DNA from: Nanobdellota archaeon
GTDB lineage: Archaea; Nanobdellota; Nanobdellia; Pacearchaeales; GW2011-AR1
Length of the DNA: 34,181 nucleotides
Assembly (NCBI GenBank): GCA_024654565.1
Contig: JANLHM010000001.1
Coordinates: 60,905-95,085, forward strand
Reading direction: 5' to 3'
The notes beneath the pieces are model-generated. The model searched no databases, was not told the origin of the DNA, and worked only from the letters and a program-made list of their open reading frames with translations. The first letter of the stretch is position 1; every line of letters begins with the position of its first letter. Position numbers and translations under genes: made by a program. Of the stretch, positions 15,107 through 25,170 are shown piece after piece.

Positions 15107-15182
15107 AGCGAGGTGGAGCAGCCTGGAGTGCTCGTCGGGCCCATAACCCGAAGGTCGTGTGGTTCAAATCCCACCCTCGCTA
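15107..15182 (+). tRNA. Initiator tRNA-Met (CAU), unusual C33 and bulged T stem
   Basis: Full cloverleaf of 76 nt. The acceptor AGCGAGG pairs with CCTCGCT, including the A1-U72 pair typical of archaeal initiators; discriminator A. The D stem is GAGC/GCTC. The anticodon stem TCGGG/CCCGA carries the three G-C pairs typical of initiators, and anticodon CAT is at 15142-15144. Two oddities: position 33 (15141) is C instead of the near-universal U, and the T stem needs a bulged T (15160) to pair GTG-GG with CCCAC. The 3' 17 nt lie in the attachment repeat of the integrated element. Likely functional, but see findings. Confidence 0.85.
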
Positions 15183-15185
15183 TTT
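15166..15185 (+). repeat. attL: 20-bp core in the tRNA-Met 3' end
   Basis: aaatcccaccctcgctattt covers the T-loop end, acceptor strand and 3 nt of flank, and is repeated exactly at 23427-23446. The intact integrase gene starts 54 bp downstream. Confidence 0.9.
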
Positions 15186-15239
15186 AACTTTTAGTAGGAT
15201 TTAGACTATATTTATAAAGTTCAATTCATACCCAAAAAT

Positions 15240-16346
15240 ATGAAGCGTGACGCATATCAATTTGAAAAGAATTGGTCTTCTTGGAAAGATAAATACTTTA
15301 AAAAAATTAAAGGAGTAAGAAGAGAAGACCACAAAATTCTAATTGACTTTTTGAAGGATATGGAACTTGGAATTAACACTCCCGTTGGAAAGAAAGGGAA
15401 GCGTGGTTCTGGAACACTCCTTAATCTTGCTTCACATAACGTTTTCTTTTTGACTAACTTCAAAAAACCTTTATTAAATATTACAAAGAAAGACCTGCAT
15501 AAATTAGAAAAGGACGTGAATGACGGAAAGATATTGAAACGTAATGAACAAAAGTTTAGTGCTTTTGGAAACTACATTAAAGACTTTAAGGTTCTATGGA
15601 ATTGGTTATACCGAACAAAACAAGTCAAGGAAAATATAACAGAAGACATTTCTTCCAAAACAGAAAAACCCGCTTGGGTTTATTTAAATGAAGAAGAAAT
15701 AAGAAATTTTTTTAACAAGCTTCTTTTTTATTATAGGGTTATTGCTTGGTTTATGTATGATTCTGGAATGAGGGTGACCGAAGCAAATTCAATCCAAATA
15801 AAACATTTCAATAAGGATTTTACACAAGTTATAATTCCAGAAGAAGCTTCAAAGACTTTCGGAAGAACAATTAACTTAAAGCTTTCAAGTAGTCTTTTGA
15901 AACAATATATTCAAGAATCCAAATTTACAGGAGAAGATTTTCTATTTCAAAAAGATTTATTCGCAACAAACAAATATCTTAAAGAGAATTGCGGGAGAAT
16001 GTTCGGGAAGGACAAAGTTTCAAATCCCAAAGCAAAGGGAAAGTATGGTGAATTCACTCTTTATGACATAAGGCATAATTCTTCTTGTTTTTGGTTGAAT
16101 AGATATCCCACACACAAAGGTTTAATGTATAGATTTGGTTGGAAAAACTCCAATAAGATTGAATACTACTCCGAATTTTTAGGACAAAGAGACGAACTAA
16201 CAGACGAAGATATGATTTCTGGGGAAGATAGAAACAAACTTTACAAATTAGAAAAGGACGTCCAAGAAATTAAGAGAGTGATTACAAAACTATTTCCAAA
16301 AGTTAAAAAAATAAATGAGTTCTTTTCAGGAAAGATTAAACATTAA
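15240..16346 (+). CDS. int: Tyrosine recombinase (integrase)
   Basis: A 368-residue site-specific recombinase. An N-terminal core-binding helical domain (about 25-140) is followed by the catalytic domain (about 145-320). Catalytic residues: R178 (SGMRVTEA), K204, R278 in LYDIRHNS, W301 in place of the second His, and the nucleophile Y309 or Y310 (NKIEYYSEF). The His of the HxxR box is Tyr here (Y275). A C-terminal coiled-coil (about 330-353) may aid multimerisation. It should join the element to the tRNA-Met 3' end. A TATA-like tatttataaag lies about 25 bp before the ATG. Confidence 0.9.
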   Translation: MKRDAYQFEKNWSSWKDKYFKKIKGVRREDHKILIDFLKDMELGINTPVGKKGKRGSGTLLNLASHNVFFLTNFKKPLLNITKKDLHKLEKDVNDGKILKRNEQKFSAFGNYIKDFKVLWNWLYRTKQVKENITEDISSKTEKPAWVYLNEEEIRNFFNKLLFYYRVIAWFMYDSGMRVTEANSIQIKHFNKDFTQVIIPEEASKTFGRTINLKLSSSLLKQYIQESKFTGEDFLFQKDLFATNKYLKENCGRMFGKDKVSNPKAKGKYGEFTLYDIRHNSSCFWLNRYPTHKGLMYRFGWKNSNKIEYYSEFLGQRDELTDEDMISGEDRNKLYKLEKDVQEIKRVITKLFPKVKKINEFFSGKIKH

Positions 16347-16354
16347 TTTGTTTT

Positions 16355-16612
16355 CTATTGACTTGAATGACCGCAACTCCGACAAACTAAAATTCCTTTC
16401 CTCAAATAAGTATTTTTGGTCGTCCCACATTCTTCACACATTTTATTAAGTGTTAATAAAGCGGTGTCCTGTGATTCAAGACTCTTGGATATTTTTTTTA
16501 AATTCAATAGAAGCTGTTCTCTAAAATAAGAATCTTGTTGAAGTTCTTGAATGTCTTTCAAAGCTTCGTGTTGTTTCTTCAAGGCTTTGTATTCTTCTTC
16601 CCAATTTACCAT
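16355..16612 (-). CDS. Coiled-coil protein with C-terminal zinc ribbon
   Basis: An 85-residue protein with a long N-terminal amphipathic helix (about 5-58) and a C-terminal C4 zinc ribbon: CEECG then CRSCG (CxxC-x14-CxxC). The layout resembles small DNA- or protein-binding adaptors in archaeal plasmids; the exact role is unknown. A TATA-like ttttaag about 25 bp before the ATG suggests its own leaderless transcript. It is convergent with the integrase, with only 8 bp between stops. Confidence 0.7.
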   Translation of the reverse strand: MVNWEEEYKALKKQHEALKDIQELQQDSYFREQLLLNLKKISKSLESQDTALLTLNKMCEECGTTKNTYLRKGILVCRSCGHSSQ

Positions 16613-16648
16613 AAAAGAATAAGGGATTAATGCTTAAAATATCTTCCC

Positions 16649-16834
16649 TTAACAAAGGTAATTCATTAACCTTGTCCCCTCTTCACCCAGAAAAACAGAT
16701 AGGGCATAATCTTGCGGTTGAACAGGTCTTTGAATCATTCTTCTCTGAATAGGTTGTTGAGGTTGTGTTCTATAAGGTTGAAGTCTTTTTACACCCAAAG
16801 GTTTTGCTGTTACTTTTGGTTTTGCTCTTATCAT
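16649..16834 (-). CDS. Basic Pro/Gln-rich small protein
   Basis: A 61-residue protein that is strongly basic and rich in proline and glutamine in its first 40 residues (RTQPQQPIQRRMIQRPVQPQ), followed by a short hydrophobic end (YALSVFLGEEGTRLMNYLC). The N-terminal part is probably disordered and may bind nucleic acid. Its ATG overlaps the stop of the upstream 42-residue gene in ATGA, evidence of a translated pair. No homologue recognised. Confidence 0.55.
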   Translation of the reverse strand: MIRAKPKVTAKPLGVKRLQPYRTQPQQPIQRRMIQRPVQPQDYALSVFLGEEGTRLMNYLC

Positions 16835-16959
16835 TTCACAATCCTCCGAATGTCAAAGATTTTCTTCTTTCTTACAAAGAAAACATAATCCCCTGCTTTT
16901 ACTTGAGGGATTTTATTTTCTTTTTTTACAGGGTTGTCTTTTGATTTTTTGCTTTTCAT
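16831..16959 (-). CDS. Very small basic protein, 42 residues
   Basis: A short frame encoding a lysine-rich N-terminus followed by a beta-strand-like C-terminal half (VKAGDYVFFVRKKKIFDIRRIV), reminiscent of a small SH3/KOW-like strand pair, although the resemblance is weak. Its stop overlaps the start of the next gene (ATGA), which is the main support. It overlaps by 47 bp, in another frame, the 41-residue frame at 16913-17038; at most one of the two need be real in that overlap. Confidence 0.5.
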   Translation of the reverse strand: MKSKKSKDNPVKKENKIPQVKAGDYVFFVRKKKIFDIRRIVK

Positions 16960-17038
16960 TAGTATTAAATAAATAATTCACAATTTTTTCTTTATCTTCA
17001 AAAAAGATTATTCTTTTAGGGATTGAAACTCGTTTCAT
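16913..17038 (-). CDS. Possible small basic protein, 41 residues
   Basis: A short frame beginning MKRVSIPKRIIFFEDKEKIV and ending in a very basic tail. The start resembles the beta strand and first helix of a ribbon-helix-helix protein but is too short for a complete fold. A TATA-like ttttaaag (about 17059-17066) lies some 25 bp upstream of the ATG. It overlaps the following 42-residue gene out of frame. Evidence is limited to promoter spacing and composition. Confidence 0.35.
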   Translation of the reverse strand: MKRVSIPKRIIFFEDKEKIVNYLFNTNEKQKIKRQPCKKRK

Positions 17039-17095
17039 AAAAGAACTAAACACCGATTCTTTAAAAGGGATTTATTGCAGTTGTAATAAGTTGTG

Positions 17096-17281
17096 TTATT
17101 CCAAGTCTAAAGGAAGTGGTTTATCTTGAAGAATTAATTGTGAAAGAACTTCAAGACTTAACCTTCTGAACTCCGACACATTCACTTTAACAAAACTCTT
17201 TTGATTATACTTTGAAATAGCTTGATTCATTCTTTGAAGGGTTGCTTCTTCAACTCTTAAGCTTGGTAATGTCTTTTTCAT
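17096..17281 (-). CDS. RHH-like small DNA-binding protein
   Basis: A 61-residue protein whose C-terminal half (KSFVKVNVSEFRRLSLEVLSQLILQ) resembles a ribbon-helix-helix domain: a short strand, then helices. The N-terminal helix (EEATLQRMNQAISKYN) may extend it. It lies 33 bp downstream of the serine recombinase gene on the same strand, so the two are probably co-expressed, perhaps with this protein acting as a regulator. Family assignment is tentative. Confidence 0.55.
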   Translation of the reverse strand: MKKTLPSLRVEEATLQRMNQAISKYNQKSFVKVNVSEFRRLSLEVLSQLILQDKPLPLDLE

Positions 17282-17314
17282 TTTTTAATTGAATAATTAT
17301 TGGACAGCTTTTAA

Positions 17315-18058
17315 TTACGACGAAGTTTCCTTTAATTTAATTCTATTGTCTGTTATTATTTTTTGGACACTTGACTTTGAAATGAACTTTTGATTTCTAT
17401 TCTTATCATAGAACCAAACTGATTGTGAAATTTCCCTAACAGATAACCCCTGTTTCTTTTTCTCAAGGACTTCATTAATAAGTTTCTGATTTATCTTTGT
17501 AGCTCTTCCCCAAAGGTTTCCTTTATAGCTCTTGGTTTTATGCCCTTCCTTTTTTCTAACTGCATTCCTAACCCTTTTGCCCAAGTCCTTTATTTCGTCC
17601 TCCGCCATTTTTCCAATTATCTTAATCATTAAACGCCAATTACTTTTGAAGTCCTCTTTTATCTTTTCATTAAAAGGGTATGGGATAGAATCAAAGTTAA
17701 GGTTCTCGGTCATTTCCCAAAGCATATTCACCCACTCTTCTTGAACAGAATAAACTTTAATGTTGTGCAGTTCATAAAGTCTTAACATAAAGTCTGCAAA
17801 GTCTTTCTTGTTTCTGAAAGCCCTGTCATACTTCCACACAATAATACAGGCACTTTCTTTTATAGCCAAAGCTTCGGCTTCATAGATTAATTTTTGTTTA
17901 GACTTCCCTGCACTTGCAATCTCCCCAAAGACTTTGAGAACCTCAAAACCTTTTTGCTTTGCAAATTCAAGGCAGTCCTGCTCTTGTAATGTATAGTCTT
18001 GCTTTTTACTTGACACCCGATTAAGAATGATTGCTTTGTTCTTGTTTTCTTTTTCCAT
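17315..18058 (-). CDS. Serine recombinase (resolvase family)
   Basis: A 247-residue serine recombinase. The resolvase catalytic domain (about 8-175) shows the nucleophile in LNRVSSKKQDYTLQEQ (S16) and the DRxxR pattern in WKYDRAFRNKKDF. The long E helix is visible in IGKMAEDEIKDLGKRVRNAV. A C-terminal helix-turn-helix (about 190-240) binds DNA. It may resolve multimers of the element's free form or invert or excise DNA; a second recombinase beside the tyrosine integrase suggests separate duties. A TATA-like aatataaaataat lies about 12-27 bp before the ATG, and two 18-bp direct repeats lie further upstream. Confidence 0.88.
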   Translation of the reverse strand: MEKENKNKAIILNRVSSKKQDYTLQEQDCLEFAKQKGFEVLKVFGEIASAGKSKQKLIYEAEALAIKESACIIVWKYDRAFRNKKDFADFMLRLYELHNIKVYSVQEEWVNMLWEMTENLNFDSIPYPFNEKIKEDFKSNWRLMIKIIGKMAEDEIKDLGKRVRNAVRKKEGHKTKSYKGNLWGRATKINQKLINEVLEKKKQGLSVREISQSVWFYDKNRNQKFISKSSVQKIITDNRIKLKETSS

Positions 18059-18118
18059 TTTGTTTAAGTATTATTTTATATTGAATGTCACTTGTCACTT
18101 GGCGTATTATCTCTCCTT

Positions 18119-18136
18119 TGATTGTTATCTATTATA
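18119..18136. repeat. 18-bp direct repeat upstream of resolvase, copy 1
   Basis: tgattgttatctattata, repeated exactly at 18184-18201 (65 bp apart, about six helical turns) in the 193-bp gene-free stretch between the resolvase and HTH genes. Candidate resolvase accessory site, operator or replication iteron. Confidence 0.6.
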
Positions 18137-18183
18137 GTCCTCGTTCTTCGTTGTCGTTATCCCAACAGGTTTGTTTATCCTTA

Positions 18184-18201
18184 TGATTGTTATCTATTAT
18201 A
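18184..18201. repeat. 18-bp direct repeat upstream of resolvase, copy 2
   Basis: Second exact copy of tgattgttatctattata. Both copies are followed by (g/a)tc. The rest of 18059-18251 shows no coding frame, only short related tracts such as cttgtcactt and ctaacacctaacacc. Confidence 0.6.
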
Positions 18202-18251
18202 ATCACTCCTAACACCTAACACCCCATAACATTACCCTTTATCCTTAAGGA

Positions 18252-18734
18252 TTATTTAGTATTAGTTCCCATTTCACCTTTCACACTACCTCCTTGTTGT
18301 TTCCTTATTCGTTCTATGAAATTAACTCTTCTTTGGGGTAATACTATGTTAAGTTGTTGGGGGGTGGGCATACATTTGTTAGTAATAACCCCTTTCTGTT
18401 CAGGATTTCCTTTAAGTTTTTTTATTTTACTTGGGGAAAGTTTATTCTTTTTAATAAACTCCTTGACATAAACTTCGGATTGAACAAACTTAAGAGTATC
18501 TTTCAGTTTATCAATAAGTTTAACCCTAACTTCAACTTCAGGGAAATATTCTTTTTTATTACTCGGCTTATCAACTCCCATTTTCTTGAGAATATCCCCC
18601 AAAGTTTTATTCACATAACTAAAGGAAACTTTCAACTCCTTTGCTATTTGTTTTTGTGTTAATCCTTCATTCCACAACTTAAAGAGTTCAAGCTGTCTGT
18701 GAGTAAAATATATTTTATTATTGTTTCTTTTCAT
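18252..18734 (-). CDS. LuxR/sigma-r4-like helix-turn-helix protein
   Basis: A protein of about 160 residues with an N-terminal HTH of the LuxR/sigma region 4 type (FTHRQLELFKLWNEGLTQKQIAKELKVSFSYVNKTLGDILKKMGV), followed by a basic region (about 65-160) of unknown fold. I prefer the ATG at 18734 over the upstream ATG at 18764, because a GAGGAG Shine-Dalgarno-like sequence precedes it by about 7 bp. It overlaps the preceding 44-residue gene. It is probably a DNA-binding regulator or replication-associated protein of the element. Confidence 0.65.
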   Translation of the reverse strand: MKRNNNKIYFTHRQLELFKLWNEGLTQKQIAKELKVSFSYVNKTLGDILKKMGVDKPSNKKEYFPEVEVRVKLIDKLKDTLKFVQSEVYVKEFIKKNKLSPSKIKKLKGNPEQKGVITNKCMPTPQQLNIVLPQRRVNFIERIRKQQGGSVKGEMGTNTK

Positions 18735-18852
18735 TTTTGCTTCTCCTCTTTTCTCTTTTAACAACTTGAAGTTGTCTTTCCTGTTCCTTCAGGGAAAGAA
18801 GTCTTCTTTGATAGGACTTCTTCCCCCGATTTTTCCATTCACCCTTTGACAT
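18718..18852 (-). CDS. Small basic protein, 44 residues
   Basis: A 44-residue, strongly basic, helix-prone protein (starts MSKGEWKNRGKKSYQRRLLS). Its ATG overlaps the preceding stop in TAATG, and its end overlaps the start of the HTH gene by 17 bp, so it fits snugly in the operon. About half of its residues are Lys, Arg, Glu or Gln, suggesting nucleic-acid binding. No homologue recognised. Confidence 0.55.
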   Translation of the reverse strand: MSKGEWKNRGKKSYQRRLLSLKEQERQLQVVKREKRRSKNEKKQ

Positions 18853-19247
18853 TATTCTCTCTTAAATTCTACTTTCTTTAATGTAGCAATTCTTCGGTTC
18901 AGTTGATTTCTTTGTATTTGAAGTTCTTTTTGTGTGGGTTCTTCAACATACACATTAAATCCAAAATTCCCTGCGGGTTTGTTTGGTTCATTAACAATCT
19001 CTAATTTGGAGTTCTCTTTTATAAGTTCTACAAGAATAGAACTTTTCAAATCCGATTCTTTACATTTCAAATAGACTTTCTCATTTGGAAAGAAATAACC
19101 TCCCCCAATTATCAAAGTAATCAATTTTCCAATCTCTTTTTTATTTGAAAGGTTATCTAACTCATTCACACTAAAAAAGAATTCCCCTGAAAAGAGTTCT
19201 CTTGGATAAAAAGATTGTCCATTAATGTATTCTATCTTAATTATCAT
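18852..19247 (-). CDS. Hypothetical element protein, 131 residues
   Basis: A soluble alpha/beta protein. It has an N-terminal beta-rich part (MIIKIEYINGQSFYPRELFSG), a central KEIGKLITLIIGGGYFFPNEKVYLK segment, and a helical basic C-terminus (TQKELQIQRNQLNRRIATLKK). I recognise no family. A good Shine-Dalgarno site (AAGGAGGT) lies about 11 bp before the ATG, inside the preceding zinc-finger gene, and the stop overlaps the next start. Part of the primase operon. Confidence 0.65.
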   Translation of the reverse strand: MIIKIEYINGQSFYPRELFSGEFFFSVNELDNLSNKKEIGKLITLIIGGGYFFPNEKVYLKCKESDLKSSILVELIKENSKLEIVNEPNKPAGNFGFNVYVEEPTQKELQIQRNQLNRRIATLKKVEFKRE

Positions 19248-19377
19248 TTTCTAAAGTTACCTCCTTTTTCTTTGTCTTGAACTTTAATTTCTTTAGGTAA
19301 TGCAAGTAGCACAAATTTTTATAATCGTAAAACTTGCATGCAGGATTCTTACATTTGTGTGTGGCTTGACATTTCAT
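19237..19377 (-). CDS. Zinc-finger microprotein, 46 residues
   Basis: A 46-residue protein with a compact cysteine/histidine set: C3, C9, C14 and C23 with H26 (context MKCQATHKCKNPACKFYD then LCYLHYLKK), followed by a basic tail. The spacing fits a single small zinc finger. Its ATG overlaps the primase stop in ATGA and its own stop overlaps the following gene by 11 bp, strong signs of a real coupled gene. It also contains that gene's SD site. It could be a regulator or primase partner. Confidence 0.65.
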   Translation of the reverse strand: MKCQATHKCKNPACKFYDYKNLCYLHYLKKLKFKTKKKEVTLENDN

Positions 19378-21920
19378 TTGAAGTTCCCCCCTATTTTGAC
19401 AACCTCAAATTCGGGTTTTTTTTCTGTCTTGAGAGCTTTTATCATTCTACCACCCTCTTCCCATTCTACACTATCTACCTCTTCCCCTTCTATTTCCTTT
19501 ATTTGTTTGAGGAAACCTTTTGCTTCTAAAAGTGACTCAAAGTCTTTCAAATCAACTTTGTATTGTGTAACCCCTTTTACCTTCCGACTCTTAAATATTG
19601 GACTTCGTTTTAAAGAGTTCCCAATTATTATGCTCATACTTCTTTTTCTCTTTTTGAACTCTTCTGAATCATAAAGATTCAATCCAACGGGTTCAACTAT
19701 ATCCTTAAGTAAAGAGAAGTAATTGTCTGTGGTAGATAGTGTAGATAGTGTAGTAAGAGTAGTATTAGTAGATAGGGTAGATAGAACCTTATATACTTGT
19801 TTTAAGGCATTAAATTCCCAATCTGTTTCAAAATCTATTGTCTCCCTTTGGGATATTTCTTCAATCCAAAAGTCTTCTATTTCTGAAAAAACACTTTCAG
19901 AAATTAGTTTTGCAATAGTAAGTTCTGGTTTAATAATAAAGAATAATCTTCCCCTTATTTTGTTTGAAGTTATTTCTTCATAAGTCTTGGAAACTTCTTG
20001 AGGATATTTTAACCCCAGAACATACAGATTGTCTCTTAAGTTTTTCCAGAAGTGTTCTGTGAAGTTTGGTTCTTTGTCATATTCTTTTTTTGAAATCTTT
20101 GGGATTCGTATTGTTATACACCTGTCCGTAGAAATAAAGTCAAGTCCTTGAGTATTGTTTAAGGTTGTAGTATTAAATAAATCATAAGTCTCGGGTTTCT
20201 TATTCTTCCCGTCACTTATCTTTCCCGCTTTAAATCCTTTCATAAAACCAACTTTTACAAGTCTTATGGTTGCATTTTTTTGTTCTTCGGGAAGGGTTTC
20301 AAAGTCGTCAATATGGGTTTCTCCTCGTGTGCTTTCAATAAGTCTTTGTAAATAAGGAAGTGTCCAATCTCCCAAAGCAATAGAATTAAATCCTGTGTTG
20401 TGCATTATTTGAGTTAATCTTGATTTAGCACTTCCCATTTCAGCATAAGGAAAGAGTCTGGCTCTTGCTCTCCAAATAGGCATAAAGAATCCCGCAATCC
20501 TATAACAAGCAAGAAGGGAATATTTTCTTTGGTCTTCAAAGTAAATATATTTTTTAAAGACAGAAATTAGTTCTTCATAAATTTTCTTAATAGTTATTTC
20601 TGAACAATCTTCATACAACCATTTATTTATTACTTCTTTGGTCAAAATATTCTCAAGTCCTTCGTCATAAAAATCGTCTTTGTAATTTAATCCGAAGTCT
20701 TTTTTAATTTCGTCTGTAACTTTTTTTCTTTGTTTTCCTTCGTCGTCCATATAAAAGAATTCTTTTTTTATGTATAATTTCTTGTCTGAAGTAACAAGTG
20801 CGGTGTGGGGTTTCCCTTCTTTAAAGAGTTTAGTTCCAAAATAATAAACTCCATTATTAAACCCACAACCAAGACTTTCATACTTTTGTCTTCCTTCTAC
20901 AAGGAAGCTTTTTATTTGTTCTTCATTTTGAGAATTTTCTTTTTGAGGGATAAATGTTTTTAATGAAGGATAGAAAGCTTCACACCATTTTTGAATTTCT
21001 TTTCTATTGATTTCTAAAATGTCCCCCTTTTGACATTTCTTAAACCACCCTAACAAATCTGTAAAAACCCATTTGTTTTGTTTAAAAATTGGTTGGATTT
21101 CTTTTTTTAAATCTTCAAGAGTATATCCTTTTTCAAATAACCAACGTGCTTCATTCTTCAAAATGTTATTATTAATTCCCGCTTCTTGATTTCCTATTTT
21201 AACTTCTTTAGTTATTCCTTCGGGAAGTTCGTTCTTTAGAACAAGATTGAAGAAGGTGTCCCATTCGTGAGTATTTTTTGTTTTGAATTCCACGTCTTGA
21301 GTTAAGGGTTTTTCTTTTTTGATAACGGGAATTTTATCTTTATTTTTTAAATGTAACAACAACCCTTTGAAGTCATTAAGTTCTTCAAAAGAATCATTAA
21401 GGAAAATACTTCTCCTTTGTGTGACAAGGTGTTTCCCTAAAGGAAGTTTAACAAGATTTCCAAAACCTTCTTCTTCAAGTTCCGTTTGTTTGGGAAATAT
21501 TTCGTGAGGTTGAACTCCTGACTTTTCACAAACCATTTCTAAAAACTCTTTCATTTGTGAAGCGGGAATTGGTTCTTGAGAGAAAATCCAAATATGTGCT
21601 TTATAATCCCCCCCACCGCTCATTTCAAATAAAGGGTTAAATCCTTTTTCTTTTAAGAATAAATAAAGTTTCTTTGCGTTTTCAAAATCTTCTTCAGTAT
21701 TTTTATCAAAGTCACAAACTCCCCATATTACTTCGTTTTGAAGATTAAGGTTGTAAGTTCCTAAAAAATCTGTTTGATTTAAATGTGACTCTATTAATTC
21801 AGAACTCAAAGGTTCTTTTACACACTTAAAGCCCTTCTTCCCGTTTGGTTGAAGGAATTGTCTTGCATAAGCGTCATTTCTTATGACAAAGAGTTCAAAC
21901 ATTAATTCTGTTGTTTTCAT
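19374..21920 (-). CDS. Primase-helicase replication protein (AEP primase plus AAA-like domain)
   Basis: An 848-residue protein, the likely replicase of the element. The N-terminal archaeo-eukaryotic primase domain (about 55-175) has DFD (D70, D72), FEMSGGGDYKAHIWIFS (S101, H109) and FPKQTELEEEGFGNLVKLPLGK, closely resembling primases of archaeal plasmids and TOTE-type systems. A second ATPase-like domain (about 465-660) has a deviant Walker A, AEMGSAKS (493-500), Walker B HIDDF (536-540), and a sensor-like NTTTLNNT. Near residue 715-730 lies a run of six L-S/T-T tripeptides; the C-terminus is a small winged-helix-like domain. The gene is preceded by a hairpin (21935-21960). Confidence 0.85.
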   Translation of the reverse strand: MKTTELMFELFVIRNDAYARQFLQPNGKKGFKCVKEPLSSELIESHLNQTDFLGTYNLNLQNEVIWGVCDFDKNTEEDFENAKKLYLFLKEKGFNPLFEMSGGGDYKAHIWIFSQEPIPASQMKEFLEMVCEKSGVQPHEIFPKQTELEEEGFGNLVKLPLGKHLVTQRRSIFLNDSFEELNDFKGLLLHLKNKDKIPVIKKEKPLTQDVEFKTKNTHEWDTFFNLVLKNELPEGITKEVKIGNQEAGINNNILKNEARWLFEKGYTLEDLKKEIQPIFKQNKWVFTDLLGWFKKCQKGDILEINRKEIQKWCEAFYPSLKTFIPQKENSQNEEQIKSFLVEGRQKYESLGCGFNNGVYYFGTKLFKEGKPHTALVTSDKKLYIKKEFFYMDDEGKQRKKVTDEIKKDFGLNYKDDFYDEGLENILTKEVINKWLYEDCSEITIKKIYEELISVFKKYIYFEDQRKYSLLACYRIAGFFMPIWRARARLFPYAEMGSAKSRLTQIMHNTGFNSIALGDWTLPYLQRLIESTRGETHIDDFETLPEEQKNATIRLVKVGFMKGFKAGKISDGKNKKPETYDLFNTTTLNNTQGLDFISTDRCITIRIPKISKKEYDKEPNFTEHFWKNLRDNLYVLGLKYPQEVSKTYEEITSNKIRGRLFFIIKPELTIAKLISESVFSEIEDFWIEEISQRETIDFETDWEFNALKQVYKVLSTLSTNTTLTTLSTLSTTDNYFSLLKDIVEPVGLNLYDSEEFKKRKRSMSIIIGNSLKRSPIFKSRKVKGVTQYKVDLKDFESLLEAKGFLKQIKEIEGEEVDSVEWEEGGRMIKALKTEKKPEFEVVKIGGNFK
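19732..19785. repeat. Six tandem 9-bp units inside the primase gene
   Basis: Units of nine bases beginning GTAG: GTAGATAGT twice, GTAGTAAGA, GTAGTATTA, GTAGATAGG, GTAGATAGA. On the coding (minus) strand each unit encodes Leu/Asn-Ser/Thr-Thr. It could be a flexible linker, an expandable microsatellite, or iteron-like DNA. Confidence 0.75.
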
Positions 21921-21934
21921 TTTATTTGATTATG

Positions 21935-21960
21935 AAAAAGGGAAATTACTTTCCCTTTTT
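21935..21960. terminator. Perfect 11-bp hairpin ahead of the primase gene
   Basis: Arms aaaaagggaaa (21935-21945) and tttcccttttt (21950-21960) around a 4-nt loop; T-runs follow on both strands. On the minus strand it includes the stop of the 70-residue gene and ends 14 bp before the primase ATG, so it could attenuate or insulate primase expression. Confidence 0.45.
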
Positions 21961-22158
21961 TTTATGGGTTTTTTTTGCAAGTCTTTTTAATTCTGCGTCA
22001 TACTCGGCGTCTCTTTTCATTATTGAATCAAAGTTCCCTTCCGAGATTGTTGTTATGCAATCCTCTACGGCTTGGATATACCAACCCCCGCGAGGTCTAT
22101 TTTTATTTTTTGCATAACTGCATAACTTTTGTAAAAGACTTATTTCGTTATTCACCAT
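21946..22158 (-). CDS. Small basic element protein, 70 residues
   Basis: A 70-residue helical protein: QKLCSYAKNKNRPRGGWYIQAVEDCITTI, then a charged helix and a lysine-rich tail (KKTHKKKGK). I chose the ATG at 22158, not the in-frame ATG at 22233, because AGGAGGT lies 8 bp before it and the longer form would overlap the preceding gene by 86 bp. With this start, the overlap is 11 bp, typical for this operon. No family recognised. Confidence 0.6.
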   Translation of the reverse strand: MVNNEISLLQKLCSYAKNKNRPRGGWYIQAVEDCITTISEGNFDSIMKRDAEYDAELKRLAKKTHKKKGK

Positions 22159-22522
22159 TTTTAGAAACCTCCTTGCAATTTTTTCCCGAAGAACTAGGTT
22201 CTTCCTTTGAGGGATTATAAACTGAAAGCACACTTTGAAAATCTGGGATATAATATGCGTCGTGCATTTCTCCGTTTTCAGTTTGAATTTTTTCAGAACA
22301 AATCACCCGTGCAAATTCAAGTTCTCTAAAAATTTGGTGAATTGAAGCATAAGGAATCTTGAGAACTTTCCCGACTTTGTATTTAGTAGTCTTGGGAAAC
22401 CTTTGAAGATAAAGCAAAATAGCCCACCGCTTTTCCTCCACACTTGAATTAGAGAGGTCTAAATTTGTGAAGTCTCCCGTGTATGATAGGGGTGATTTTG
22501 AAAAAAAAGAGTTATCGGTCAT
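22148..22522 (-). CDS. Winged-helix DNA-binding protein
   Basis: A protein of about 124 residues with a central winged-helix domain: SVEEKRWAILLYLQRFPKTTKYKVGKVLKIPYASIHQIFRELEFARVI, then a wing (EKIQTENGEMHDAYYIPDF). The serine-rich C-terminus is probably disordered. I prefer the ATG at 22522, because a TATA-like aatttaaatg (22548-22557) would then stand at the usual 26-35 bp; the ATG at 22552 lies inside that box. Probably a regulator or replication-initiation accessory of the element. Confidence 0.65.
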   Translation of the reverse strand: MTDNSFFSKSPLSYTGDFTNLDLSNSSVEEKRWAILLYLQRFPKTTKYKVGKVLKIPYASIHQIFRELEFARVICSEKIQTENGEMHDAYYIPDFQSVLSVYNPSKEEPSSSGKNCKEVSKNGE

Positions 22523-22628
22523 TTGATAAATTTTCCCCCTGAAAATAAACATTTAAATTATTAATGAGTAAGTCCATTTCTCTTTCAAAATTATACACTA
22601 AATCCAACGTTGGAATTTCCATTTTAAA

Positions 22629-22784
22629 TTATTCTGAAGAATCCCCCTTGTTTTTTACTTGAGAAAAGAAAAGCATTTTGAAAAGTGAAGAAACTGAAAG
22701 ACCTAATCTTTTTGATTCTTCAGAAATCATTTTTTCTTGGTCGCCGTTCACATACACTTGAAATATTTTGTTTTTGTTAACCAT
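22629..22784 (-). CDS. RHH-like protein, 51 residues
   Basis: A 51-residue protein, MVNKNKIFQVYVNGDQEKMISEESKRLG then SVSSLFKMLFFSQVK: a strand followed by two helices, as in ribbon-helix-helix repressors. I chose the ATG at 22784. The frame continues upstream through two 27-bp DNA repeats, which read out as a meaningless repeated peptide, and a TATA-like ttataac stands 26 bp before this ATG. It is divergent from the winged-helix gene at 22918, and the pair looks like a regulatory switch. Confidence 0.65.
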   Translation of the reverse strand: MVNKNKIFQVYVNGDQEKMISEESKRLGLSVSSLFKMLFFSQVKNKGDSSE

Positions 22785-22786
22785 TA

Positions 22787-22813
22787 TGTTTAAACCTACT
22801 TTTTTAGTTATAA
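22787..22813. repeat. 27-bp direct repeat in divergent promoter, copy 1
   Basis: A 27-bp sequence containing the palindrome gtttaaac and ending in ttataa, repeated exactly at 22850-22876. The start-to-start distance is 63 bp, six helical turns. On the minus strand the end of the repeat is the likely TATA box of the RHH gene and the palindrome falls near its start. Confidence 0.75.
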
Positions 22814-22849
22814 TATTTATGGGCTTCAAGTTTAAAAACCTTTTGGTTC

Positions 22850-22876
22850 TGTTTAAACCTACTTTTTTAGTTATAA
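22850..22876. repeat. 27-bp direct repeat in divergent promoter, copy 2
   Basis: Second exact copy. A partial third match (tagttataac) lies at 22895-22904 in the promoter of the rightward winged-helix gene, so one repressor may control both directions. Confidence 0.75.
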
Positions 22877-22917
22877 CCAACCTAAAACTTTAAATAGTTA
22901 TAACTTGTTTATATTTC

Positions 22918-23397
22918 ATGGTTACAACAAAACAATTAGGAAACCTTATTTCCGTCGCTGAAGCCCTTAAACAAAAAGAAATGTCTATTGTAGAATTGCA
23001 AAAAGAATTGAATATGAAAAGAAGCACATTAATTTATTACTTGGGAATTCTTGAAGAAAAGGGTTGGTTAACAAAAGAAGTTCAAGAAAAGAAGCAAGGA
23101 AAACCTACGACTCTAAAATTTGATAAAAAGAATTATGAACAAGCTGGAAAGGATTTTGAGAAAAGACAAAAAGAAGAAGAAGAAAAGTTATTGAAGCACC
23201 CGCTCACTTTTGAAGTATTAGAATTATTAAAAAAAGATTCCACCTTAACACACAAAGAATTACACGGAAAAACTACTGATTACTTTAGAAAAGCAAATCA
23301 TTTGAATTGGTTAATTAGTAAAGGATTAATTATTCAAGAATTTAGGATAACTCCTGAAGGTGAAAAATTCCTTAAAGAACATTCTAAAAAAGAATAA
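22918..23397 (+). CDS. Winged-helix transcriptional regulator of the element
   Basis: A 159-residue protein with an N-terminal winged helix (ALKQKEMSIVELQKELNMKRSTLIYYLGILEEKGWLTKE), a charged helical linker (about 70-95) and a second winged-helix-like domain (HPLTFEVLELLKKDSTLTHKELHG to LIIQEFRITPEGEKFLKEH). Likely the repressor of the element, transcribed away from the minus-strand operon. A TATA-like ctttaaata lies 22-30 bp before the ATG, indicating a leaderless message. Its stop is 29 bp from attR. Confidence 0.75.
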   Translation: MVTTKQLGNLISVAEALKQKEMSIVELQKELNMKRSTLIYYLGILEEKGWLTKEVQEKKQGKPTTLKFDKKNYEQAGKDFEKRQKEEEEKLLKHPLTFEVLELLKKDSTLTHKELHGKTTDYFRKANHLNWLISKGLIIQEFRITPEGEKFLKEHSKKE

Positions 23398-23426
23398 TTA
23401 TATAGTCTAACAAATACTTTTAGTAT

Positions 23427-23446
23427 AAATCCCACCCTCGCTATTT
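23427..23446 (+). repeat. attR: 20-bp core
   Basis: Exact copy of the tRNA-Met 3' end repeat at 15166-15185. Beyond it the sequence differs from the left flank, as expected for the chromosomal side. Confidence 0.9.
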
Positions 23447-23465
23447 TTCGTTCAAGAAAAATAGC
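23440..23465. repeat. Hairpin starting within attR
   Basis: A perfect 10-bp stem GCTATTTTTC/GAAAAATAGC with a 6-nt loop gttcaa, its left arm lying in the tRNA-derived repeat. Confidence 0.65.
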
Positions 23466-23789
23466 CTGACCAATGAAATTGAGTCTCGCTATTTTCAATA
23501 TTCCGCTTTGCGGAATATGATAAGAATTATTGGGATTTGAAACCAAATCCTGAGGATTTCTGGCGTCATTATTGCTAATGTTTCGGACGACACGAAGTTC
23601 GAACAACCCTCGCTATTTCGTTTCTTAAACATTTGCAATTGGGAGAAACAAAATAGCTCGCCCTCGCATATTTTTTTTAAAAAATAGCATGACCAAGGAA
23701 CTCGAGTCTCGCATATTTTTTGCTCGGAAGAGGATTTGAACCTTTTTGATTGAAGAAAGATTTAAATACTTATATTAATTGATATAACA
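23447..23789. repeat. Gene-free mosaic of tRNA-end fragments and hairpins
   Basis: 343 bp without a gene. Partial copies of the tRNA-Met end (ctcgc-tattt type) occur at 23484-23495, 23606-23618, 23661-23673 and 23707-23720. A 35/36-bp unit with five differences occurs at 23461-23495 and 23684-23719 (shared core tgaccaa, gagtctcgc). Inverted arms gctattt/aaatagc recur at 23612-23656 and about 23666-23688. A separate 9-bp hairpin lies at 23498-23518. Inverted T-arm-like pieces are gggatttgaaacc at 23532-23544 and ggatttgaacc near 23731. The pattern fits scars of repeated integration at this tRNA. Confidence 0.6.
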
Positions 23790-24077
23790 ATGCACGAGGT
23801 AAGTTTTATGAGGCAAGAGAATTATACAAGGTATCCTAGATTAGATACTGTATTAATGGTTGAAAGGTTTATTGATGAAAATAGCGGAGAGTATAAGGTC
23901 TATCAACTTTGGAAAAATCTACCAAAGAAAGTAATGTACCAAACTTACAAAATCATTCTTTCATACTTAATAGACATAAACAAAATTGCAATTGACTCCG
24001 AAGGGAAAATTGGTTACATATGGAGTGAAAAATTAGGGCAAAAATACAAAAAAAGAAGTGATTTAAAGTGGGAATAG
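23790..24077 (+). CDS. Winged-helix-like protein, probable antitoxin
   Basis: A 95-residue protein: DTVLMVERFIDENSGEYKVYQLWKNLPKKVMYQTYKIILSYLIDINKIAID followed by a wing and a basic end (GYIWSEKLGQKYKKRSDLKWE), consistent with a single winged helix. An alternative ATG lies six codons in (23808). A TATA-like atttaaatac (23759-23768) precedes it by about 22 bp. Its 3' end overlaps the next gene by 10 bp, and that product resembles RelE/ParE-like toxins, hence the antitoxin guess. Confidence 0.6.
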   Translation: MHEVSFMRQENYTRYPRLDTVLMVERFIDENSGEYKVYQLWKNLPKKVMYQTYKIILSYLIDINKIAIDSEGKIGYIWSEKLGQKYKKRSDLKWE

Positions 24078-24406
24078 TTAAACCAAGTAATTCAGTCGCT
24101 TTTGCTGATGAAAAGATAATGAATGCATGGAAAGAAGTTGAAAAGACTGATTCAGAATTTTCAAAGCATCTCTTACGAGCAAAAGAAGATATCTTAAAAA
24201 ATGCTTTTTGTGGAGAGCAAATTCCAAAGAAATTAATTCCAAAAGAATATAGGAAAAAATACGAAATAGATAATCTTTGGAAATATAACTTACCAAATGC
24301 TTGGAGGCTTCTTTATTCTGTAACAACTCCCTCAAAAGTTGAGATAATTTCAGTAGTCCTTGATTGGATGGACCATACGAATTATAATCGTTTGTTTAAG
24401 TATTAA
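24068..24406 (+). CDS. RelE/ParE-like toxin-family protein
   Basis: A 112-residue protein. The C-terminal half follows the RelE/ParE-like pattern: a basic Leu-Trp-Lys-Tyr-Asn-Leu segment, then NAWRLLYSVTTPSKVEIISVVLDWMDHTNYNRLFKY, where the Arg in WRLLYS and the final Tyr/Lys would face RNA. The start is GTG at 24068, overlapping the upstream gene. It sits in the scar region after the integrated element, a usual place for addiction cassettes. Activity on mRNA is inference from fold. Confidence 0.6.
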   Translation: MGIVKPSNSVAFADEKIMNAWKEVEKTDSEFSKHLLRAKEDILKNAFCGEQIPKKLIPKEYRKKYEIDNLWKYNLPNAWRLLYSVTTPSKVEIISVVLDWMDHTNYNRLFKY

Positions 24407-24471
24407 AATAGTTCTCTATCGCTATTTTTTTAATTCCAACAATTTTTAAACAATCGCCCTTTAATCTAAAC

Positions 24472-25170
24472 ATGGTACTAACTGAGCAGGCCCTTTTTCC
24501 AAATACCTTTGGAATGGAATTAATTTATTCATTTGTAATAATCTTTTGTAGTCTTTTAATCTATTTTAGTACAAAGAGCATCTACAAAATAAGTAAATAT
24601 CCTGGAATAAAGTATTTCAGAGAAGCATTTTTATTTTTTGCAATTGCCTACTTCTTTAAATCCTTCATAAGCTTCCTTTTCTTTATTTTTGAAGTTAGGG
24701 GGTTAACCGAATTTTCTTCAATATTTATTGGAGTCTTGAGCTTGTTCTTTTTTATGTATGCAAGCACGATGGCAATTTTTTATCTTCTTTACAGCGTTGT
24801 ATGGAAAAACCTCAAAGAAAAGTTTAAAGAAAGTAAGTGGACTGTTCCGTTTATCCATATTTTTGTGTTAATTATTTCAGCAGTGAGTATTGTTGTTCGT
24901 GAAGCAGGAGTTTTGATCCTTTTGCAGGTCTTTGTTTTCATTTTTATTGCAGTTAACAATTATTCTTCTTACAAGAAACTAAAGACAAAAAGTAAATCCG
25001 GCTCAATATACCTCATTTACCTGTTTTTATTCGTCTTCTGGATGCTGAACCTCTCAGACTTTTTGATTGTGGGGTTTGGTCCAATTGTTGAACTATTAAT
25101 TTCTTTAATCTCAATTGGAATCTTCTTGTTCATCCTTTACAAAGTTACAAGATATGTAGGTTTTAACTAA
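24472..25170 (+). CDS. Seven-helix membrane protein, unknown function
   Basis: A 232-residue membrane protein with about seven helices (approximately 17-35, 48-70, 79-108, 122-140, 145-161, 175-195, 205-225) and short basic cytoplasmic loops. It ends one base before the start of a winged-helix gene, suggesting a sensor-regulator pair. The pattern of an integral 7TM protein followed by a wHTH is frequent in archaea. I see no enzymatic motif. Confidence 0.7.
   Translation: MVLTEQALFPNTFGMELIYSFVIIFCSLLIYFSTKSIYKISKYPGIKYFREAFLFFAIAYFFKSFISFLFFIFEVRGLTEFSSIFIGVLSLFFFMYASTMAIFYLLYSVVWKNLKEKFKESKWTVPFIHIFVLIISAVSIVVREAGVLILLQVFVFIFIAVNNYSSYKKLKTKSKSGSIYLIYLFLFVFWMLNLSDFLIVGFGPIVELLISLISIGIFLFILYKVTRYVGFN

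Follow-up and report, generated by a model that had tools for sequence, protein, structure and literature searches.

Layout and borders of the element

The window analysed here, a stretch of 34,181 nucleotides from contig JANLHM010000001.1 of an archaeon of the Nanoarchaeota, contains at positions 15166-23446 a segment of 8,261 bp that is enclosed by two exact copies of a 20-bp repeat and holds 15 predicted open reading frames (ORFs), with about 91% of its length coding (Table 1). A tyrosine integrase gene reads rightward just after the left repeat (attL), followed by a long run of leftward genes, several of which overlap at their ends, and a double winged-helix gene reads rightward beside the right repeat (attR). 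It is highly probable that this segment is an intact integrative plasmid-like element of the kind termed cryptic integrated element (CIE), put into the 3' end of an initiator tRNA-Met gene by its own, classical, tyrosine integrase. An earlier, sequence-only reading of this DNA had proposed a complete 8.26-kb integrative element bounded by a perfect tRNA-derived repeat in a DPANN-like host, and in these points it was borne out: the archaeon falls in the same Nanoarchaeota genus as one of our comparison genomes (G008), and the left copy of the repeat, AAATCCCACCCTCGCTATTT, is the 3' end of a tRNA-Met gene.

Apart from these two copies, the window has no match to AAATCCCACCCTCGCTATTT even when 3 mismatches are allowed, and shuffled sequence gives an expectation of 0 matches at the same tolerance. 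A composition scan gave no border signal. The target tRNA stays whole after the insertion, its 3' end being restored by element sequence; an Rfam scan returned two tRNAs and nothing else. Archaeal initiator tRNAs typically have an A1-U72 pair and a GGG/CCC anticodon stem. The target looks like an initiator tRNA because both features are present in it and absent from the other tRNA-Met of the genome (G000:C1:244039), which starts GGCTCTG.

Short repeats were also found at the inner ends of the element. When these ends were joined in silico, ATATAGTCTAA and TTAGACTATAT came to lie at distances of 16 and 15 bp from the core, with a copy of ACTTTTAGTA on either side of it. The core would thus be surrounded by an inverted and a direct pair, the pattern that arm sites of a single circular attP should show, and the paired repeats would tie both ends to one circle. 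Compared with shuffled sequence, the 11-bp inverted pair had a p of 0.003 and the 10-bp direct pair a p of 0.02, and both occurred together in 0 of 3000 shuffles. The overlap of the left candidate arm with the TATA-like region before the integrase gene (int) suggests autoregulation of int. Among the related elements described below, an inverted pair of 10 bp flanks the core of element A in G091, and the G016 element has nothing as long.

Table 1. Features of the element, its target gene and the adjoining DNA (positions in the window).
Feature	Position	Strand	Support or remark
tRNA-Met(CAT), initiator type, target gene	15107-15182	+	ARAGORN; Rfam RF00005, 52.1 bits; A1-U72 and GGG/CCC anticodon stem
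attL core, 20-bp repeat	15166-15185	+	Exact repeat
Candidate arm site ACTTTTAGTA, direct repeat	15187-15196	+	Direct partner 23416-23425
Candidate arm site TTAGACTATAT	15201-15211	+	Inverted partner 23400-23410; overlaps TATA region of presumed int promoter
Tyrosine integrase, 368 aa	15240-16346	+	PF00589, 7.6e-7; PHROG integrase, 3e-16
Zinc-ribbon-like protein, 85 aa	16355-16612	-	Weak zinc-ribbon matches
Microprotein, 61 aa	16649-16834	-	ORF only
Microprotein, 42 aa	16831-16959	-	ORF only; overlaps ORF 16649-16834
Ribbon-helix-helix (RHH)-like small protein, 61 aa	17096-17281	-	By eye; no significant family match
Serine recombinase (resolvase/invertase type), 247 aa	17315-18058	-	PF00239, 2.8e-15; homologue in same relative order in L085
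Candidate res site, two 21-bp direct repeats	18119-18204 (18119-18139, 18184-18204)		Upstream of resolvase gene; putative function
LuxR/Tfx-like helix-turn-helix protein, 160 aa	18252-18734	-	PF00196, 2.6e-7
Basic microprotein, 44 aa	18718-18852	-	ORF only
131-aa protein	18852-19247	-	No family match
Cys-rich microprotein, 46 aa	19237-19377	-	ORF only; overlaps end of primase gene
Prim-Pol-helicase, 848 aa	19374-21920	-	CAPP/TOTE-type primase domain, aa 5-193 (21342-21908); AAA+ helicase, aa ~324-805 (19506-20951)
70-aa protein	21946-22158	-	Weak matches only
Winged-helix-like protein, 134 aa	22148-22552	-	By eye; no family match
RHH regulator (NikA/CopG-like), 51 aa	22629-22784	-	PF21983, 0.0034, below cut-off; RHH at same position in L069
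Divergent control region	22784-22917		Two 30-bp direct repeats (22784-22813, 22847-22876); GTTATAAC motifs beside TATA-like box
Double winged-helix regulator, 159 aa	22918-23397	+	PF13412, 1.4e-7; homologue in L069, E 7e-9
Candidate arm site ATATAGTCTAA	23400-23410	+	Inverted partner 15201-15211
Candidate arm site ACTTTTAGTA	23416-23425	+	Direct partner 15187-15196
attR core, 20-bp repeat	23427-23446	+	Exact repeat
Accreted DNA	23447-24471		Degenerate att-like ends (e.g. 23606-23618); toxin-antitoxin-like pair (23790-24077, 24068-24406)

The element proteins were scanned against Pfam, PHROGs, NCBIfam and PADLOC, and no virion, packaging, relaxase, type IV secretion system (T4SS) or cas protein was found, the Prim-Pol itself being listed as CRISPR-associated. 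The element thus combines an integrase and bounded att repeats at a chromosomal site with an absence of virus hallmarks and conjugation genes among its main ORFs in Pfam, PHROGs and NCBIfam, and the corresponding site in relatives is empty. This agrees with the gene set of an integrative plasmid that had been read from the sequence, including the intact tyrosine integrase and serine recombinase and the lack of structural or transfer genes. Several members had also been said to resemble nothing recognisable; the 131-aa and 134-aa proteins and most of the microproteins indeed gave no match in the family scans.

Empty sites in sister species

Ten other species of the host genus, which belongs to the Nanoarchaeota, were compared. 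The primase was absent from all 10 and no integrase was seen at the tRNA-Met site in any of them. In seven (G002, G003, G004, G005, G006, G008 and G010) the tRNA-Met gene was linked to the same downstream gene, mem232, without integrase or primase, at a distance of 194-2557 bp versus about 9.3 kb in the element-bearing genome. The bases that follow the tRNA in G010 (TTTTGCTTTAACAAAATAGCATGACCAAG...GAGTCTCGCTATTTT) align with those that follow attR, and by this alignment G010 presents a near-base-precise empty site. Empty tRNA-Met sites in related genomes had been suggested as a check, and the same 8-kb gene order fixed in all relatives, or frameshifts in integrase and primase, as grounds for abandoning the idea of a complete element; that gene order is absent from the sisters' tRNA-Met sites, and both genes are free of frameshifts. 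Because the gene set looks sufficient for insertion, excision and the initiation of replication, and the site is empty in sister species, we conclude that this is a genuine element and that it has probably kept its mobility.

Other short cargo occupies the same site in several sisters, and in G005 an attR-like sequence, TTCCCACCCTCGCTAT, lies about 1.9 kb from the tRNA, which marks the site as an insertion hotspot. A genome of another genus (G018) has a stop-riddled integrase remnant behind a tRNA-Met 99% identical to the target. Two loci with integrase relatives near the same neighbour genes (L103 and L104) were checked for the same tRNA-Met, which was absent.

The tyrosine integrase and its family

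In an alignment of 19 integrase sequences, R178, Y275-x-x-R278, W301 and Y309/Y310 were conserved and K205 nearly so, with R178, Y275, R278 and Y309/Y310 invariant. R...YxxR...Y is the published signature of pNOB8-type archaeal integrases (PMC8371274), whose genes are likewise left intact by integration. A suicidal (SSV-type) enzyme was rejected, as the int ORF is intact, begins 54 bp past the core and does not contain attP; with its gene unsplit, the integrase is of the classical type. DPANN, Nanoarchaeota and Woesearchaeota do not occur in that publication (PMC8371274), the main review on archaeal tyrosine recombinases.

Relatives of the integrase were found in 27 other genomes (139 searched), the identity being 34-41% for most full-length sequences, and 96 places were confirmed in GTDB genomes, giving a family of at least 96 members. 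Pacearchaeota, Woesearchaeota and further Nanoarchaeota make up most of the hosts, alongside some bacterial bins, including Planctomycetes and Omnitrophota. Many relatives in DPANN genomes stand directly behind tRNA-Glu, -Asp or -Leu genes, and some of these have a repeat of the tRNA end downstream, such as the one in G016 (L087), with 32 bp at 16.2 kb.

Three of these loci deserve a separate mention. The G016 locus (L087 111-16357, reverse strand) is a 16.2-kb candidate element at tRNA-Glu whose cargo includes a retron-like reverse transcriptase and ABC transporters, among others. At a tRNA-Asp in G071 (L089 2782-17535), a candidate element of about 14.7 kb has, besides an integrase of the same family, VirB4/TrbL-like genes, a gene for a reverse transcriptase and two similar proteins of variable type; inspection by eye suggests a conjugation-like element that carries a diversity-generating retroelement. 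The integrase at L106 9998-11212, 41% identical to that of the element, lies on a bacterial contig (JAUHXU010000002.1; 1.18 Mb, GC-rich), a hint that the family has been transferred between domains.

The Prim-Pol-helicase

The sequence-only reading had described an archaeo-eukaryotic primase (AEP) fused to an AAA-like domain, and both halves were recognised again. Residues 5-193 match PF22548 (AEP-TOTE; 7e-34, 117.8 bits, cut-off 27), and the solved Prim-Pol 7nqd/7nqf was matched over residues 9-192 (E 1.5e-16), an alignment that also brings the DxD and H motifs into register. By these matches the domain is an AEP of the CAPP (CRISPR-associated Prim-Pol)/TOTE type. PADLOC labels it PrimPol; its score against the CRISPR-associated Prim-Pol equivalog NF040561 was 121.7 bits, below the cut-off of 200, and no cas gene was called in the element, which leaves it short of full CAPP membership. 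CAPP (PMC8211822; PDB 7nqd, 7nqf) has a homologous AEP domain but is CRISPR-linked and accompanied by tetratricopeptide repeat, reverse transcriptase or other domains, whereas the AEP of the element is fused to an AAA+ helicase. Partner domains of TOTE operons were not among the Pfam matches of the element, the partner models not having been scanned one by one. Given the helicase fusion and the genomic context, a TOTE- or CRISPR-type defence role was given little weight.

The C-terminal remainder had no direct Pfam match, and DUF3631 was matched by two homologues. Three residues, namely the Lys of Walker A, the Asp of Walker B and an Arg resembling an Arg finger, were invariant or nearly so across 15 homologues. 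An AlphaFold2 model of the helicase part alone, built with 15 sequences, reached a pLDDT of 77 (the whole protein, with 6 sequences, reached 49 and was not used). Its best PDB matches were MCM, the African swine fever Prim-Pol, PriRep1, the NrS-1 C-terminal region (CTR), poxvirus D5/E5, the Rep protein of adeno-associated virus and SV40 T antigen, with TM-scores mostly of 0.2-0.35 by query length. Such modest scores do not point to a close family, and the model supports the AAA+ replicative helicase fold class for the C-terminal half. Relatives of the helicase occur in 17 of the 378 genomes of the class, the element's own genome included. In plasmid and phage collections, primase or helicase was matched at the domain level only, at less than 35% identity.

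Control region

The RHH and double winged-helix genes near attR are divergent, as the divergent repressor pair of the sequence-only reading implied. The interval between them holds a direct repeat in two copies 63 bp apart (exact over 27 bp, 97% over 30 bp) and GTTATAAC palindromes beside a TATA-like box. The same gene pair is divergent at the primase/helicase of G033, where a TATA-GTTATA arrangement directly precedes the winged-helix gene. From this arrangement we read the region as a putative autoregulated switch, and its repeats as putative operators or iterons.

Related elements and class

Elements with an integrase, a Prim-Pol-helicase and winged helix-turn-helix (wHTH) or RHH proteins, and with no virion or transfer genes, are a known class in Thaumarchaeota, the CIE (PMC6563490). 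Like the element described here, they integrate into tRNA 3' ends with a tyrosine integrase, encode wHTH/RHH regulators and lack virion and conjugation genes, and some (e.g. NitKor_MY1-E1 and NitAQ6f-E4) have a Prim-Pol fused to a superfamily-3-type helicase; they differ in belonging to another archaeal phylum, the present element having a CAPP/TOTE-type Prim-Pol and a serine resolvase. It is most probably a CIE, and new are its host group, the type of Prim-Pol, the apparent initiator tRNA target and the comparative evidence. The earlier suggestion that its composition is undescribed must be qualified, as the class is known and partial relatives exist in other DPANN genomes. In the literature searched, there was no description of integrated elements of this type in Nanoarchaeota or Pacearchaeota.

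The partial relatives share different portions of the gene set. An element in G036 (L085), for which no att site was found, has a tyrosine integrase, an RHH protein, a Prim-Pol on the same helicase family and a serine recombinase 33-36% identical to that of the element, in the order RHH, primase, serine recombinase; its primase domain is PF09250 and its integrase belongs to another group. Element A of G091 (L068), at a tRNA-Glu, is of similar build (8.8 kb, a 25-bp att repeat, the integrase 50 bp after the tRNA), and a winged-helix protein is divergent from its helicase, which is 33% identical to that of the present element, whereas its integrase is of another group, its helicase has no AEP domain and it carries more cargo genes. 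It is one of two tandem elements at this tRNA-Glu, the second of which begins with an integrase of the family described above. G033 (L069) also has an RHH gene divergent from a wHTH gene beside primase/helicase, the latter as separate primase-like and helicase ORFs, and G059 encodes a single protein with primase-like region, CHC2 zinc finger and helicase, close to an integrase of the group to which that of G091 element A belongs. Other DPANN elements thus have the same replication and control module with different integrases and primase classes, and the comparison of G036, G033, G091 and G059 suggests that helicase and regulators form a core around which the integrase, the class of primase and the cargo are swapped. 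We propose tentatively, with slightly more doubt than conviction, a DPANN-wide lineage of modular integrative plasmids in which interchangeable integrases and Prim-Pol domains are combined with one AAA+ helicase family, a CRISPR/TOTE-type Prim-Pol would here serve as plasmid replicase, and a recurrent docking site would be the gene for the initiator tRNA in a reduced symbiont genome. As a separate observation, the G033 locus (L069 14766-19655) encodes a DNA polymerase II large subunit of 1629 aa with an apparent intein.

Proposed cycle and alternative explanations

Judging from its sites and domains, the element could cycle as follows. A promoter within the left end would drive the integrase, which would recombine attL and attR into an 8.26-kb circle with a single attP between paired arm sites, and the leftward operon would be derepressed from the RHH/winged-helix control region. 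The Prim-Pol-AAA+ helicase, to go by its domains and fold, would then prime and unwind the circle and leave bulk synthesis to a host polymerase, multimers would be resolved by the serine recombinase at the repeats upstream of its own gene, and the circle would reintegrate into the tRNA gene with restoration of the 3' end, as in the restored gene observed here. Since transfer and virion genes are lacking, entry into new cells would need another element, a virus or cell contact.

Some observations weigh against an active integrative plasmid. The GC content of the element (31.6%) is that of its flanks (31.3-32.6%), which allows for a long residence, and its own assembly contains a single copy each of integrase, primase and tRNA. 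The predicted attP junction, CTTTTAGTATAAATCCCACCCTCGCTATTTAACTTTTAGTAGG, had no exact match in IMG/VR, no replication origin was identified with certainty, and a complete relative with the same gene set was not found.

The 8.3-kb size and the combination of integrase, divergent regulators and primase-helicase resemble phage-inducible chromosomal islands (PICIs), the helicase model matches PriRep1, a primase-helicase of Staphylococcus aureus pathogenicity islands (SaPIs), and the element is without transfer genes of its own, all of which would suit a PICI/SaPI-like satellite packaged by a DPANN virus. We nevertheless consider a satellite unlikely, since PHROGs revealed no packaging-interference, terminase or capsid-related gene, relatives of the integrase (none confirmed) and of the primase were missing from 2.9 million IMG/VR contigs at the sensitivity of the search used, a plasmid-type serine resolvase is present, and the integrase relative in G071 (L089) sits, by eye, in a VirB4/T4SS-like element and not with virus genes. 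The latter relative, together with the NikA-like RHH protein, could instead suggest mobilization by the conjugation-like system of larger DPANN integrative elements. That possibility is very slight: relaxase (Pfam and NCBIfam scans) and coupling protein are absent, and RHH proteins are equally well plasmid repressors, the NikA-like one adjoining the divergent control region.

It also seems improbable that the segment is a domesticated or stranded island, immobile and kept for its regulators or for a role of the Prim-Pol in repair or defence. The GC content equal to that of the host and the decayed att-like copies around att would fit such an island, as would the solved structures closest to the primase domain, which are those of CRISPR-associated Prim-Pols, in line with the PADLOC label. 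The main ORFs are all intact, however, the element is absent from the 10 sister species, and the primase is fused to a helicase, adjoins no cas genes and has homologues in other integrated elements. As an integrative plasmid, the element is of a kind known in broad terms, from a host group that has been little explored. It indicates that self-contained mobile DNA occurs in archaeal genomes of ultra-small size and, by its sequence, would link CRISPR/TOTE-type Prim-Pols to plasmid replication; intact, small and bounded, with a predicted replicase, an integrase and regulators, it could serve as a replicon and as a tool for site-specific integration in a group that lacks genetics.

DNA outside attR

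The borders placed earlier at 15166 and 23446 hold for the repeat-bounded element, but foreign-looking DNA runs about 1 kb past 23446, to a conserved gene at 24472, and is largely absent from the G010 site. It includes a rightward toxin-antitoxin-like gene pair, absent from G010, whose second gene is RelE/ParE-like by eye and has no Pfam match; a pair 47-50% identical to it lies on a Phycisphaerae contig (L164) that also has an integrase of the element's family. A tRNA-like non-coding stretch of about 130 bp (23475-23620) contains CCTGAGGATTTCTGGCGTCAT and ends in CCCTCGCTATTT; neither ARAGORN nor Rfam called a tRNA in it, a dispersed repeat was rejected as it is single-copy in its own genome, and a similar stretch occurs at the same locus in G005. 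Finally, a motif of about 33 bp with inverted ends (AAAATAGC..TGACCAA.GAA...GAGTCTCGC), possibly a terminator-like hairpin or an att relic, is present at 23457-23489 and 23680-23712 and also behind the tRNA-Met of G010 (L066).

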